From Nocardiopsis trehalosi NBRC 14201 (GTDB lineage Bacteria; Actinomycetota; Actinomycetes; Streptosporangiales; Streptosporangiaceae): a stretch of DNA of 36,058 bases. The stretch is from positions 1 to 36,058 of the forward strand of contig NZ_BCRK01000048.1 of the NCBI RefSeq assembly GCF_001552555.1, in the 5' to 3' direction. Under the pieces are notes generated by a model, which was not told the DNA's origin, did not search any database, and was given only the letters and a program-made list of their open reading frames with translations. Shown here one piece after another: positions 15,323-27,627 of this stretch; the stretch's first letter is position 1, and each line of letters begins with the position of its first letter. The translations under genes were made by a program, and so were the position numbers.

Positions 15323-16693
15323 ATGGCGGTGTCGACAACGGTCCCGGCGGCCACCCGGCCTCGGGAGCGCCGGGCGGCCGAGGACGGCAGGGGGCGGCTG
15401 CGGCTGCGGGAGGTCCCGCAGCTGCTCGACCGGCCGCTCACCTCCTACTACCTGATCCTGGGCAGCAGCGGGCTGCTGATCACCCTGGGCCTGACCATGG
15501 TGCTGTCGTCGTCCATGGTCGACTCCTACACCGAAACCGGGTCGGCGTTCTCCCTGTTCCAGAAGCAGGTGGTCGCCGCCGCCGTCGGCCTGCCGCTGCT
15601 CGTCCTCGCCTCGCACCTGCCCATCCGGATGTTCCGGATCGTGGGCTACCCGGCGATGCTGGTCTCGGTCGCCCTGCTGCTCGTCACCGTCTTCCGCGGC
15701 GAGGAGTACGGGTACGGCGCGGTGCGCTGGCTGGAGGTCGGCGGCCTCACCATCCAGGCGTCGGAGCCCGCCAAGCTCGCGTTCGCCCTGTGGGGCGCCA
15801 ACGTCCTCGCGCGCCGCGTCGAGCTGAAGCAGATGGTCGAGTGGCGCCAGCTCCTCATCCCGCTGCTGCCGGGCTGCGGCACCCTCGTCCTGCTCGTCCT
15901 CCTCGGCACCGACCTCGGTACCACCTTCGTGCTGCTCAGCACGTTCCTCGCCCTGCTGTGGGTGGTGGGCGCCCCCGGCCGGCTCTTCGTGGGCATGATC
16001 GGCCTGGTCGCGTCGCTCGGCGGCATCATGATCGCCGTCGAACCGTTCCGCATGGCCCGCGTCACCTCGTTCCTCAACCCCGAGGCCGACCCGAGCGGGT
16101 CGGGCTTCCAGCTGCTGCACGGCCTCTACGCCCTGGGCACCGGAGGCCTGTTCGGCGTCGGCATCGGCGGCAGCCGCGAGAAGTGGGGGTTCCTGCCGCA
16201 CCCGGAGAGCGACTTCATCTTCGCCATCATCGGCGAGGAGCTGGGGCTGATCGGCACCCTGCTCGTCGTCGGCCTGTTCGGCGTGCTCGGCTACGCCGGT
16301 CTGCGCGTCGCGGCCCGCGTGCGCGACCCCTTCGTCCGGCTCGCCGCCGCGGCGGTCACCGCCTGGATCGTCATCCAGGCGCTGGTCAACATCGGCACGG
16401 TGGTCGGACTGCTGCCCATCACCGGCATCCCGCTGCCGCTGGTCTCGGCCGGCGGATCGTCGCTGATCCCGACCATGGTGGGGCTCGGCATCCTGCTCGC
16501 CTTCGCCAAGAGCGAGCCCGACGCCCGCCGGGTGCTGGCCGCGCGCGGTCCGGGGCGGGTGCAAAGGGCTCTAAGCTGGCTTCGCCTGGACAGTGCGGGC
16601 ACCGGCGACGGCAAGCGGACCGGGGGCGGCGCGCAGGCGAAGAACGTATCGCGACCCACGCAGGTCCAAGCGAGGAGGAATCGGCGACGATGA
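15323..16693 (+). CDS. ftsW: Septal peptidoglycan glycosyltransferase FtsW
   Basis: A 456-residue SEDS-family polymerase with about ten membrane helices that polymerises lipid II glycan strands at the septum with FtsI. Conserved SEDS segments include [21 protein letters not shown], the catalytic aspartate Asp297 in [16 protein letters not shown], and [12 protein letters not shown] ~55-residue basic C-terminal tail ends in RRNRRR. The start ATG at 15323 follows GGAGG by six bases; longer upstream frames run through murD out of phase. Its stop overlaps the murG start (ATGA at 16690-16693). The 140-base murD-ftsW gap shows no convincing promoter. Confidence 0.95.
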
Positions 16694-18093
16694 GGGTAGC
16701 CCTCGCCGGAGGTGGCACGGCCGGGCATATCGAGCCCGCGCTCTCCCTGGCCGACGCGCTTCGGCGCATCGACCCCCACACCCAGATCGTGTGTCTGGGC
16801 ACCGAGCGGGGACTGGAGACCCGGCTCGTCCCCATGCGGGGCTACGAGCTGGGCGAGATCCCGGCGGTGCCGCTGCCGCGCAAGCTCACCCCCCAGCTGC
16901 TGTCGGTCCCCGGCAAGCTCGCCAGCGCCATCAGCGCCGCGGGCGACCACCTGGACCGCATCGAGGCCGACGTCCTGGTGGGCTTCGGCGGGTACGTGGC
17001 CACCCCCGGCTACCTGGCGGCCCGCCGCCGGCGCATCCCCATCGTCGTGCACGAGGCCAACCCGCTGCCCGGGCTGGCCAACCGGCTGGGCGCCCGGCTC
17101 ACCCCGCACGTCTACACCGGCCACCCGCACACCGAGATCCGCAACGGGCGCTACATCGGCATCCCGCTGCGGCAGCAGATCTCCACGCTCGACCGGCTCG
17201 CCATGGGCGACAAGGCGCGCGCCCACTTCGGACTCCGCCCCGAGCTGCCCACGCTGCTCATCTTCGGCGGCTCCCAGGGCGCGCAGGCCGTCAACCAGGC
17301 CGCGTTCGACGCCGGCGACCACTTCCGCGCGGCGGGCGTGCAGGTGCTGCACGTGGTCGGCCCGAAGAACGCCGACGAGCCCGAGGACCGCACCCGCGAC
17401 GGCGTCCCCTACGTGGTGGTGCCCTACGTCGACCGGATGGACCTCGCCTACGCGGCCGCCGACGTCGCCATGTGCCGCTCCGGCGCCATGACCTGCGCCG
17501 AACTCACCGCGGTGGGGCTGCCCGGCGCGTTCGTGCCGCTGCCCATCGGCAACGGCGAGCAGCGCCTCAACGCCGAGCCGATCGTCGAGGCCGGCGGCGG
17601 GCTGCTCGTGGCCAACTCCGACCTCACCCCGCAGTGGATCGTGCAGCACCTCATCCCGCTGCTGACCGACACCGACCGGGTCGTCGCCATGTCCGAGGCC
17701 GCCGGCCGCATGGGCCGCCGCGACGCCGACATGGAACTCGCCCGCGAGGTCATCGCGGTCGCCCGCGGCGATCGCCCCGCCGGCGACCCGCTGGCCGACG
17801 AGGCCGAGGACGACGCGGGCTACGACCCGGCGCCGGGCTACGACCAGGCGCCCGGACACCCGCAGCAGCAGTACGGCCACGCCCCGGACCAGGGCTACGG
17901 CAACCCGCAGGGGTACGGCCCGGGGCAGCCGCAGGGGTACGGCCACCCGCAGCAGGGCTACGGGCCCGGTCAGCCGCAGGGCTACGGCCACCCCCAGCAG
18001 GGGTACGGCCAGGCCCCCGGCAACCCGCAGGGTTACGGCCCGGGTCAGCCGCAGGGCTACGGCCCCGGCTACGAGGGCGGGGACCGGCGATGA
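16690..18093 (+). CDS. murG: Lipid II synthase MurG with long repeat tail
   Basis: A 467-residue GT-B glycosyltransferase that adds GlcNAc to lipid I on the inner membrane face, forming lipid II. Residues 1 to about 360 are an ordinary Mur[16 protein letters not shown] at the N terminus, [33 protein letters not shown], and the acceptor/UDP region [11 protein letters not shown] with [16 protein letters not shown]. Typical MurG proteins are about 350-380 residues. Here residues 377-467 form an extra tail rich in Gly, Tyr, Gln and Pro (GYGPGQPQ-type repeats). The tail continues in frame to an ATGA overlap with murC, so it is not a frameshift product. AGGAGG lies 11 bases before the start. Confidence 0.95.
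17893..18072 (+). repeat. In-frame [15 protein letters not shown] repeats in the MurG tail
   Basis: The tail is built from GYG-started units. A 15-codon unit ([15 protein letters not shown]) occurs twice back to back, at 17911-17955 and 17956-18000. By my reading the two copies differ at six third-codon positions and at no amino acid. Shorter units [16 protein letters not shown] and GYGPGQPQ flank them. The synonymous-only divergence suggests that the peptide sequence is under constraint. Confidence 0.9.
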
Positions 18094-19517
18094 GCCTCGT
18101 GCCGCCGACCGAACCCGTCCCCGTCGGGAAACTCGGCCGCGTCCACTTCGTCGGCATGGGCGGGGTCGGCATGTCCGGCATCGCCCGGGTCCTCCTGCAG
18201 CGCGGCGTCGAGGTCTCCGGCAGCGACGCCAAGGACGGCCCGCTGCTGCGCGAACTCCAGACCCTGGGCGCCGAGGTGCACGTCGGCCACGCCGCCGCCA
18301 ACGTCGGCACCGCCGACACCGTCGTCGTCTCCTCGGCGGTCCGCCCCGACAACCCCGAACTGGTCGAGGCCCGCGCCCGCGGGCTGCGGGTGCTGCCGCG
18401 CGCCGCCGCCCTGGGCGCCCTGCTGCTCGACCGCCGCGGGGTCGCCGTCGCCGGAACGCACGGCAAGACCACCACCACCTCCATGCTCACCGTGGTCCTG
18501 CGCGAGGTCGGCGCCGACCCCGGCTACGTCATCGGGGGCACGCTCACCACCACCGGCCGCAACGCCGGCGCGGGCACCGGCGACATCATGGTCGCCGAGG
18601 CCGACGAGAGCGACGGCTCCTTCCTCATGCTCTCCCCGGCCGTGGCCGTCGTCACCAACGTCGAGGCCGACCACCTCGACAACTACGGCGGCCTGGAGGA
18701 GATCCACGCCAACTTCGCGGCGTTCGCCGAGCGCGTGGGCGACGCCCTCGTCGTCGGGATCGACGACCCCGGCGCCCGCCGGGTCGCCGACACCGCCCGC
18801 GCCCGCGGCCTGCGCGTCCGCACCTACGGCGAGCACCCCGACGCCGACTACCGCGTGTCCGGCGTCACCGCCCAGGGCTTCCGCACGTCGTTCACCCTCA
18901 CGGTGCGCGGTGGCGAGCCCCTGGCCTGCGCCATCGCCGTCCCCGGCCGGCACAACGTGCTCAACGCGGCGGCGGCCGTCGCGGCCGCCGACGAACTCGG
19001 CCACGCCCCCGAGGCCGCCGCGGCCGGACTCGCCGCCTACACCGGCGCCGCCCGCCGGTTCGAACCGAAGGGCGAGGCCGGCGGGGTCGCCGTCTACGAC
19101 AGCTACGCCCACCACCCCACCGAGATCGCGGCCGACCTGCGCGCCGCCCGCGCCGCTCTCGACACGCGCGGGGGCGGCGGCGCGCCGGGCCGGGTCGTGG
19201 CGGTGTTCCAGCCCCACCTGTACAGTCGCACCCGGATCTTCGCCGCCGAGTTCGCCGAGGCGCTCACCCTCGCCGACGCCGTGGTGGTGCTGCCCGTCTA
19301 CGCGGCCCGCGAGGACCCCGAGCCCGGGGTCGACTCCGGGCTCATCACCCGCGGCGTCGCCCACGACCGGGTGTACCCGGTGGCCGACGGCGCCGCCGCC
19401 GTCGCCCGCGCCGCCGGACTCGCCGCGCCCGGCGACATCGTCCTGACCATGGGCGCCGGCGACGTCACCGAACTCGGACCCGACATCGTCGCGGCGCTGG
19501 GAGCCGCGACCGCCTGA
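18090..19517 (+). CDS. murC: UDP-MurNAc:L-alanine ligase MurC
   Basis: A 475-residue cytoplasmic ligase that adds L-alanine to UDP-MurNAc, the first step of stem-peptide assembly. The N-terminal [14 protein letters not shown] motif binds UDP-sugar. The ATP loop GTHGKTTTT (Lys126) follows, then EADESDGSF, the ADHLDNYG segment and the YAHHPTEI motif. Length and order are normal. Its ATG overlaps the murG stop (18090-18093), so ftsW, murG and murC are all translationally coupled. The gene ends 45 bases before ftsQ, with no terminator seen between them. Confidence 0.96.
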
Positions 19518-25677: not shown

Positions 25678-27627
25678 GTGTTCATCCTCAGCCTCGTCAC
25701 CCTCGTGGCGGCTCTGGTCGTCATCGCGGTGGCCGTGGTGCTCGCCGAGACCACGCTGGTCTACATCGCCCTCGGACTGGGCGGCCTCGGGGCCGTCTTC
25801 CTCGTGGCGGAGCTGGTCAGACACCGCGCGCACCTGACGGGCGGACAGGATGGGACGACGGGACGCGGGGCCCCGCCGGCGCACGCCCCGTGGACGGACG
25901 GTTTGGGGAAGGCGTCCGTCCCCTCCGCGGCCACCGCGGTGGGGCCCGCGACCGGCGACCAAGGGCGGCGCACGCCCGCGCCCGTACCGGCCCACCCGCC
26001 GGTACGGGCGGGCGCGTCTCCCAGCGGCGCCTGGGAGCGGCCCCGACCCGGAGCCGGCGCCCCGTACGGAGCGCCCGGCCAGGGCACCGCCTCCGGTGCC
26101 CCCGCCGCCACCCGCGCGTACGGTGTCCCCGCCGCCGCGCCCCCCGGCACCCCGCCGGGCCCGGCCGAGCCCGCCACCGGCGCGGCGGCCTCGGACCCCC
26201 GGCCGCCCTCCGACCCGGCCCACGGCCGCGGCACCGGCGACCGGCCCGACCCTTCCGCCGCCCCGCGGCCCACCGGCGCGTACCCGCACGGCGCCGCGCA
26301 CCCCGACGATCCCCACTTCGAGCCCACCGACACCGGCACGGCCCTGTGGCTGAACGCCCCCGACACCCCGGCGCCCGCCGACCGCGCGTCCGGCCCCACG
26401 CCGCCCACCTCGGCCGGCCCGCCGGACACCCCCACCGCCGCGGTCCGCAACGGCCCCCCCGAGGCCCCGCCCGCCGACCCCGGCCCCGACGCGCCCACCG
26501 TCCGGCCGACCGCCGACGCCGCCCCCGGCGGCGGCACCCCCGACACTTCCGGCGCCGCGTCCGCCGACACCGGCCCCGACGCGCCCGTCGTCCCGTCGGC
26601 CGCCGACGCCGCCTCCGGCGGTGACACCCCCGCTGACGCGCCCGCAGACGGCGCCGAGACCACGTCCTTCGGGGCGTTCGTCGAGCGCCTGCAGAACGGC
26701 CACCCGGCCGGCGGGGCCGCCCCGGACACCCCGGAACCCGACCCGGCCCACGCGTCCGGCGCCGTGTCCGACGCCGACGACGACCTCGACCTGGTCGCCG
26801 AACCCCTCCCGGCCGCCGACGCGCCCGACCCCGAGCCGACCGACGCCGCGCCGGAGACCGCCGTCGACGCGCCCGCCGACCCGGTCGACGTGGACTCCGA
26901 GACGCCCGCCGACCCGGGCCCGCCCGCCGAGGCCGACGCCCCGGCGGTGGCCGAGGTCACCGCCGCCTCCCCGGCCGTCGGCAGCGACGCGGACACCGAC
27001 ACGCCCGACCCCGGGCACGGCGCGGCGGCGGAGCCCGCCGACCCCCAGGACGCGCCGGCCCCCGATCCGGCCCCCGCTGGATCGGACACCGACCCCGGCC
27101 CGGCCGCCACCGACCGGGACGACCCGGCCGACACGCCCGACCCGGCCGACGGCGCCGGCACGTCCGCCTCCGGAACCGGCGGCGCGGACACCCGGGACGA
27201 CCCGCCCTCGGACGGCGCGGGACAGGAGGCGGCGGACACCGCCGACTGGGCGCCCGGCGACCCGGGTCCCGACGCCACCGCGCCCGACGGTGCTGTGGAC
27301 GAAGCCCCGGGCGGCGGCACCACCGCCGCCGACGGTCCCGCAGACCCGGCCCCGGTGGACGACCCGCGCCTCACCGGTGCCGAGGACGACATCGACGGCC
27401 CGGCGGTCCTCGCCGCGCCCGGCGCCCCCGACCCCGAGGACGGCCCCGAGACCGGCTCGGGCGCCCCCGCGCGCTTCACCTACCGGCTTCCGGGGCGCCC
27501 CGCCGAGGACACCGCCGACCACCGGGACGGCCACGGATCCGGAACCGGCGCCGCCGAATCCTCGCCCGCTCCGGACGGTGAGCCGGACACCACCACGGGG
27601 CACAACCGTCCCGCGACCGACGACTGA
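25678..27627 (+). CDS. Membrane protein with long acidic disordered domain, unknown function
   Basis: A 649-residue protein I do not recognise. Two hydrophobic helices (about 2-23 and 27-47) are followed by LVRHR, then about 600 residues of Pro, Ala, Asp, Gly and Thr without an evident fold. The disordered part is strongly acidic toward the C terminus. It includes an imperfect repeat with a 30-codon period starting near 26482 and 26572 (GPDAPTV..., GPDAPVV...). With the two helices as a hairpin, both the N terminus and the long tail would be on the same side, probably cytoplasmic, but topology is uncertain. Start: GTG 25678, with AAAGG about 12 bases upstream. It follows divIVA by 65 bases in the same direction. 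Overlapping open frames here are Arg/Pro-rich shadows. Confidence 0.75.
   Translation: MFILSLVTLVAALVVIAVAVVLAETTLVYIALGLGGLGAVFLVAELVRHRAHLTGGQDGTTGRGAPPAHAPWTDGLGKASVPSAATAVGPATGDQGRRTPAPVPAHPPVRAGASPSGAWERPRPGAGAPYGAPGQGTASGAPAATRAYGVPAAAPPGTPPGPAEPATGAAASDPRPPSDPAHGRGTGDRPDPSAAPRPTGAYPHGAAHPDDPHFEPTDTGTALWLNAPDTPAPADRASGPTPPTSAGPPDTPTAAVRNGPPEAPPADPGPDAPTVRPTADAAPGGGTPDTSGAASADTGPDAPVVPSAADAASGGDTPADAPADGAETTSFGAFVERLQNGHPAGGAAPDTPEPDPAHASGAVSDADDDLDLVAEPLPAADAPDPEPTDAAPETAVDAPADPVDVDSETPADPGPPAEADAPAVAEVTAASPAVGSDADTDTPDPGHGAAAEPADPQDAPAPDPAPAGSDTDPGPAATDRDDPADTPDPADGAGTSASGTGGADTRDDPPSDGAGQEAADTADWAPGDPGPDATAPDGAVDEAPGGGTTAADGPADPAPVDDPRLTGAEDDIDGPAVLAAPGAPDPEDGPETGSGAPARFTYRLPGRPAEDTADHRDGHGSGTGAAESSPAPDGEPDTTTGHNRPATDD

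Follow-up and report, generated by a model that had tools for sequence, protein, structure and literature searches.

The solved MurG chains that match the protein described here, PDB 1f0k/1nlm (E. coli MurG), 3s2u and 7d1i, represent three distinct sequences of 364–365 residues. They match our protein up to residues 334–360 and carry no tail, ending about where the tail reported below begins. This tail is encoded in the window, i.e. the whole stretch of DNA analysed, which comprises 36,058 nucleotides of Nocardiopsis trehalosi NBRC 14201 (contig NZ_BCRK01000048.1). Bordetella MurG is reported to oligomerise and has been proposed to act as a scaffold (PMC6420597). M. smegmatis MurG is described as enriched in a polar membrane domain, a marker of which delocalises upon DivIVA depletion (PMC7864634). 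In E. coli SSB, a Gly-rich linker with aromatic residues drives condensation, and a role is ascribed to its Arg and aromatic residues (PMC12143593). Among the papers listed by searches of the open literature, none dealt with a MurG tail of disordered or low-complexity type, and in those of the MurG-mentioning papers that were checked, ‘C-terminal tail’ referred to RuBisCO, RodZ or FtsZ and not to MurG. Together with the tail-less PDB chains, this is in line with an earlier note on this DNA, in which such a tail was said not to be known from characterized MurG proteins. Overall, the window encodes a known enzyme in a new form, seen in one genome and paralleled in further genera of its GTDB family.

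The murG frame and its repeat tail

The murG gene occupies positions 16690–18093 on the plus strand, as do all features of the locus given below, and its reading frame consists of 467 codons followed by TGA. The product passes the curated cut-off of TIGR01133 (260.2 versus 250.25 bits), and both PF03033 and PF04101 are above their cut-offs. The domain matches stop at residue 347 (Pfam GT28-C) and residue 352 (TIGR01133, residues 1–352), in agreement with the earlier note, which had the catalytic part complete by about residue 360. Based on these matches and the conserved columns of alignment A1, the catalytic part with its GT28 N and C domains was assigned to residues 1–358 (16690–17763). GGTAGH and GGSQGA, presumably the glycine-rich loops of the MurG family, are invariant across the 10 rows of this alignment, and murC follows murG, as in the dcw cluster. 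By the family model, this MurG is an otherwise ordinary GT28 enzyme, predicted to transfer GlcNAc to lipid I. The catalytic part is followed by an acidic linker (residues 359–375, 17764–17814), which aligns with the short acidic stretch that closes MurG in relatives, and by a Gly/Gln/Pro/Tyr tail (residues 376–467, 17815–18090), delimited by composition and predicted disorder. The frame then runs into murC (18090–19517, an open frame), which starts within an ATGA overlap at 18090–18093. The coordinates, the 91-residue length (377–467) and the in-frame run to this overlap had all been given correctly in the earlier note. No frameshift, which the same note had considered near position 17800, is apparent there, and DEAEDD, the acidic stretch directly preceding the tail, stays in frame when aligned to DEAEDDGEVYLDDGKDAR of a relative (L002). 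GC content at codon positions 1/2/3 is 0.86/0.54/0.95 for residues 367–467 and 0.77/0.49/0.97 for residues 1–366; with these values, the frame looks coding throughout. Elsewhere in the window, a 90-bp tandem repeat (1.9 copies, 86% match) is found at 26464–26632, and the last 30 positions of the contig (36029–36058) are all G. Such poly-G runs are typical of two-colour sequencing artefacts.

Residues 377–467 are composed of 27 Gly, 18 Gln, 17 Pro, 12 Tyr, 4 Asp, 4 Ala, 4 His, 2 Asn, 2 Arg and 1 Glu, with Ile, Leu, Val, Met, Phe, Trp, Cys, Ser, Thr and Lys absent from the count. The array is built in frame from GYG.P.QPQ-type units and the tail terminates in GYEGGDRR. The longest stretch that recurs exactly and without overlap in the tail has 15 residues, whereas 2000 shuffles that keep the composition never exceeded 8; the repeats exceed chance. 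The adjacent units A (residues 407–421, 17908–17952) and B (residues 422–436, 17953–17997) share one peptide. In addition, residues 444–458 (18019–18063) are identical in peptide to residues 404–418, with three codons differing, all silently. A decamer of the tail occurs three times, each time inside the tail, with the repeat copy number as read from a draft assembly of 368 contigs. The tail has no match in NCBIfam and none significant in Pfam (a keratin-associated match with an E-value of 3.7, far below the cut-off, was dismissed), and the tail alone has no match in the PDB. In the AlphaFold model, pLDDT is under 50 at residues 369–467 and no secondary structure is present there; the model was built from an alignment of only 10 sequences, and its scores are also low in parts of the MurG core. 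The tail is thereby predicted to be an intrinsically disordered low-complexity region.

A donor for the tail was sought in several ways. The best other match in a protein search of the same genome was unconvincing (E-value 0.049), in a search where the bias correction of HMMER may hide low-complexity relatives. The exact decamer, looked for in 341 family genomes, points to this gene only, and tblastn against a plasmid collection gave no match. Duplication of repeats in situ probably gave rise to the array.

The 3′ end of murG and MurG tails in relatives

In Nocardiopsidaceae, MurG ends in a short acidic stretch, which in 34 of the 38 proteins tallied has the form D(D/E)GKDxx and in 35 of 38 holds a Tyr or Phe. 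The codons for DDGKDxx contain GGGAAGGA or a near form, directly before the murC start, and this apparent Shine–Dalgarno sequence of murC could explain the constancy of the peptide (L002–L035 except L011). We therefore set aside DDGKDxx as a functional peptide, the ribosome-binding site encoded there being the simpler reason; peptide conservation at the end of Nocardiopsidaceae murG may reflect an effect at the RNA level. Predicted pairing with the anti-Shine–Dalgarno sequence averages −8.9 kcal/mol in 33 relatives, ranging from −12.0 to −5.5, the mean being taken over those of the 34 loci that have a murG/murC overlap, i.e. all but L011. For the stretch GAGGGCGGGGA within the last tail codons in the window (18073–18083), a bulged pairing of −10.4 kcal/mol is predicted, and the last murG codons look like the ribosome-binding site of murC. 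The array thus lies between the acidic stretch common to relatives and the Shine–Dalgarno-like site. With this site kept at the 3′ end, the operon could probably take about 80 extra codons with translation of murC unharmed. The GYD/GYG units may have arisen from the Tyr that relatives carry (GAYVDDGKDAR and similar).

The decamer, in any codons, was found in one of 341 genomes of the GTDB family, namely this one, whose genus is represented by that genome alone. A scan of contigs yielded 57 loci, 56 of them readable; L050 was dropped because its murG frame is broken in that record. None of the 56 has more than 32 residues past position 358 and none has GYG there. In the L050 record (Nocardiopsis sp. 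CNR-923), murG reads for 136 codons before it stops, due either to a sequencing error or to a true break. The GYG tail was likewise not found in the C-termini of 113 other family members and 55 other class members, a set that is not independent of the 57 loci, as it may include the same species. In the 55 class members outside the family, MurG extends at most 30 residues past position 358. Moreover, in a class-wide search of 394 genomes (392 matching), no other sequence among the matches listed passes query residue 400 free of stops. Given its absence from the relatives read and that of the decamer from 340 family genomes, the tail is not a shared MurG function. The earlier note had counted absence from close relatives against its proposal; this objection holds in part, as the tail is missing from all C-termini of relatives that were read.

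Long MurG tails of other kinds are nevertheless present in the GTDB family. At least 39 residues past position 358 were found in 12 of the 113 family genomes whose C-termini were read, a count that is not usable as a frequency, because the genomes were drawn from the best matches listed and the C-termini were selected in part for having space for a tail in the alignment or open frame. The 12 genomes belong to genera g13 (G029 and G028, the latter truncated at a contig end), g15 (G034 and G035), g20 (G046), g48 (G207) and g66 (G331, G332 and G334–G337); in g66, G333 gave no match and G338 a weak partial one, and both are outside the tail set. Loci L241–L246 (G331, G332 and G334–G337), L088 (G046), L089 (G029) and L221–L223 (G028, G035 and G034) hold these tails, which are long, fast-changing and of low complexity. 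The tails of other genera (39–255 residues past position 358) resemble the window tail in their position in MurG and in low complexity, whereas their sequences, rich in Pro, Ala, Gly, Gln or Arg, are unrelated to it. Those of g13, g20 and g66 are Pro/Gln-rich, and that of g20 contains QQYPGG repeats. Seven tails of g66 and g20 end in a GRH-containing basic tip (GRHRQAR, GRHRHAR, GRHRR, GRHRQTR or GRHARP), which is not present in the window protein. By eye, the codons of this tip hold no ribosome-binding site except in G332, which has GGAAGG. The tip is kept while the rest of the g66 and g20 tails varies and could be a membrane or partner contact.

A tree of 60 MurG cores places the window genome next to Streptomonospora (support 98/92) and well away from the other genera with long tails. 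The long-tail label, carried by 12 of the 60 rows, which were picked to include tailed genomes, requires six gains or losses, of which at least four are forced by well-supported branches. Most simply, the window tail is a separate gain. Such a pattern is compatible with the main rival to the reading that we prefer, namely, a tolerated and nearly neutral expansion, in which slippage and unequal exchange in GC-rich DNA would lengthen a free C-terminus and the composition would stem from codon and amino-acid bias instead of function. The absence of the tail from the relatives read, and the divergence in sequence and length of family tails with their repeated changes on the tree, speak for such an expansion, which we regard as a real possibility but a doubtful one.

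Silent change between repeat units

What argues against neutral expansion is the pattern of change within the array. Units A and B differ at six codons, all silently, as the earlier note had read them. With 10.3 synonymous and 34.7 non-synonymous sites, the chance that six of six changes are silent is ∼1.5e-4 (given 10.3/45 synonymous sites), a biased count, since the pair was singled out for its identical peptide; it has only 8 fourfold codons. The comparison was repeated with segments picked by DNA similarity alone. The three best offsets gave eight silent changes and one non-silent at 15 codons (pS 0.59, pN 0.02), three and two at offset 25 (0.30, 0.06) and three and five at offset 40 (0.21, 0.11). 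The weaker offsets, which reach the array front, gave three silent and 14 non-silent changes at offset 29 (0.21, 0.27), three and four at offset 44 (0.38, 0.14) and three and three at offset 55 (0.39, 0.12). Thus, pS exceeds pN at offsets 15, 25, 40, 44 and 55 but not at 29. Constraint is therefore clear only in residues ∼400–458 and is weak or absent in the array front. The proposal in the earlier note that the peptide was conserved after duplication is accordingly supported for the block 400–458 and hardly or not at all for the front, where poor conservation between units is what a neutral expansion would leave.

Fourfold Gly/Pro codons differ between A and B at six of eight positions, compared with 17 of 64 between the murG cores of the window and Streptomonospora mangrovi, and the corresponding fraction in seven nocardiopsid core comparisons is 0.26–0.38 (L040 was left out, an indel putting its codons out of register). 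Two random codons drawn from core usage would differ with an expected frequency of 0.42 for Gly and 0.49 for Pro. In this very small sample, A and B are about saturated at silent sites, while none of their 30 first and second codon positions has changed, which speaks against neutrality in the block 400–458. Three histories would fit: an array that predates the split from Streptomonospora, with later loss in the latter; mutation and recombination in the array that outpace those of the core; or assembly from units that were different at the outset. Many silent differences with an unchanged peptide suggest that the peptide of the main block is probably under purifying selection, as judged between units within one genome, the sole representative of its genus.

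Possible roles of the tail

The reading that we prefer, with a confidence slightly short of even, is that of a lineage-specific, intrinsically disordered tail with Tyr stickers on an otherwise ordinary MurG, the main-block peptide of which is probably kept by selection and which would add weak association with itself or with partners. Twelve evenly spaced Tyr residues on a flexible Gly/Gln/Pro chain would provide MurG, a peripheral membrane enzyme, with extra weak multivalent contacts, either with other MurG molecules, with Tyr-Gly-rich stretches of other proteins in the genome or with both, and these contacts would raise the local density of MurG at the membrane. The step from composition to clustering is an inference, and weak multivalent association as the effect of the tail is favoured at under even odds, also in the light of Tyr-Gly-rich stretches elsewhere in the genome and of what is published on Bordetella and M. 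smegmatis MurG and on the SSB linker. The suggestion of the earlier note that the tail clusters MurG with MraY, FtsW or DivIVA is a guess. The tail has a low charge (FCR 0.08), no aliphatic residue other than Ala and 13% Tyr. The spacing variance of its 12 Tyr is below that of each of 5000 random placements, an evenness that follows from the repeats themselves. In condensing tails, Arg is the usual cation-π partner of Tyr. Here there are only two Arg, both at the very end, and no Lys, so that partners for cation-π contacts within the tail are not available along its length. The likeness to condensate-forming repeats drawn in the earlier note is therefore supported by the predicted disorder and even Tyr spacing and weakened by the scarcity of Arg. 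By analogy, the tail may act in the manner of the bacterial SSB linker, which is rich in glycine and dotted with aromatics. The linker of E. coli SSB and the tail both combine much glycine with Pro, few charges and aromatics at intervals; in contrast to that linker, the MurG tail has 13% of its residues as Tyr and contains neither a GGXXGGG motif nor an acidic tip, the likeness being one of composition.

Tyr-Gly-rich stretches are found elsewhere in the genome. A pattern of three TACGG words has 39 matches, some overlapping, versus 19 for the reversed control; seven of the 39 lie in the MurG tail and several others are not low-complexity. On contig C14, a 176-codon frame (L197, 282–809, minus strand) without a Pfam match carries a C-terminal Gln/Tyr/Gly repeat (QGYGYGQQQQGYGYGQQ) and ends in QGYGYGQQ.... 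On C76, a MecA_N/transpeptidase frame (L216, 904–3063), cut by the locus end, has a long N-terminal YGGPSGPQ-type repeat before a likely membrane helix. A third Tyr-Gly-rich frame, on C25, is DUF3558-like but below the DUF3558 cut-off, and several further Tyr-Gly-rich proteins are apparently membrane-bound, as judged by eye. The stretches on C14, C25 and C76 share the Tyr/Gly/Gln/Pro vocabulary of the MurG tail, but the exact decamer is found neither in them nor elsewhere in the genome. Within the window, DivIVA and SepF contain no GYG, and repeats shared with either were rejected; FtsZ has one GYG without a repeat.

Apart from neutral expansion, a flexible spacer or solubility tail that keeps MurG soluble or sterically shielded with no specific contacts would fit the low charge, Ala as the sole aliphatic residue and the disorder of the model, and the unrelated tails of other genera would serve equally; yet a pure spacer needs neither evenly spaced Tyr nor an unchanged peptide, and we consider it unlikely. 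A bolder version of the preferred reading would make MurG a multivalent hub in the genus, whose tail co-assembles with Tyr-Gly-rich cytosolic stretches of membrane proteins, including the MecA_N penicillin-binding protein, and concentrates lipid II synthesis by tail–tail contacts, with g13, g20 and g66 having evolved the same trick by unrelated tails. To this we give little credence. Binding of one defined partner, e.g. by PxxP-type contacts, instead of general clustering, is suggested by five PxxP in the tail, three of them within PGQP, and for the SSB linker a binding role of its PxxP motifs has been put forward (PMC10164576). However, chance would readily give PxxP in a stretch with 19% Pro, and we consider a defined partner highly improbable. 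Finally, an assembly or base-calling artefact, for which the draft state of the genome (6.38 Mb, 368 contigs) and the poly-G contig end might speak, is practically negligible given the open frame with coding-like third positions up to the correct murC overlap, the silent differences between units and a genome 99.99% complete with 0.02% contamination.

The preferred Tyr-sticker reading bears on how MurG, the enzyme that makes lipid II, is retained at sites of wall growth. In Nocardiopsidaceae, extension of the MurG C-terminus would be limited by the ribosome-binding site of murC, and the repeated growth of MurG tails in the family marks this C-terminus as an evolutionary free end. Streptomonospora MurG, with a core about 90% identical and no tail, provides a natural pair with the window protein for testing the effect of disorder on the placement and activity of MurG.
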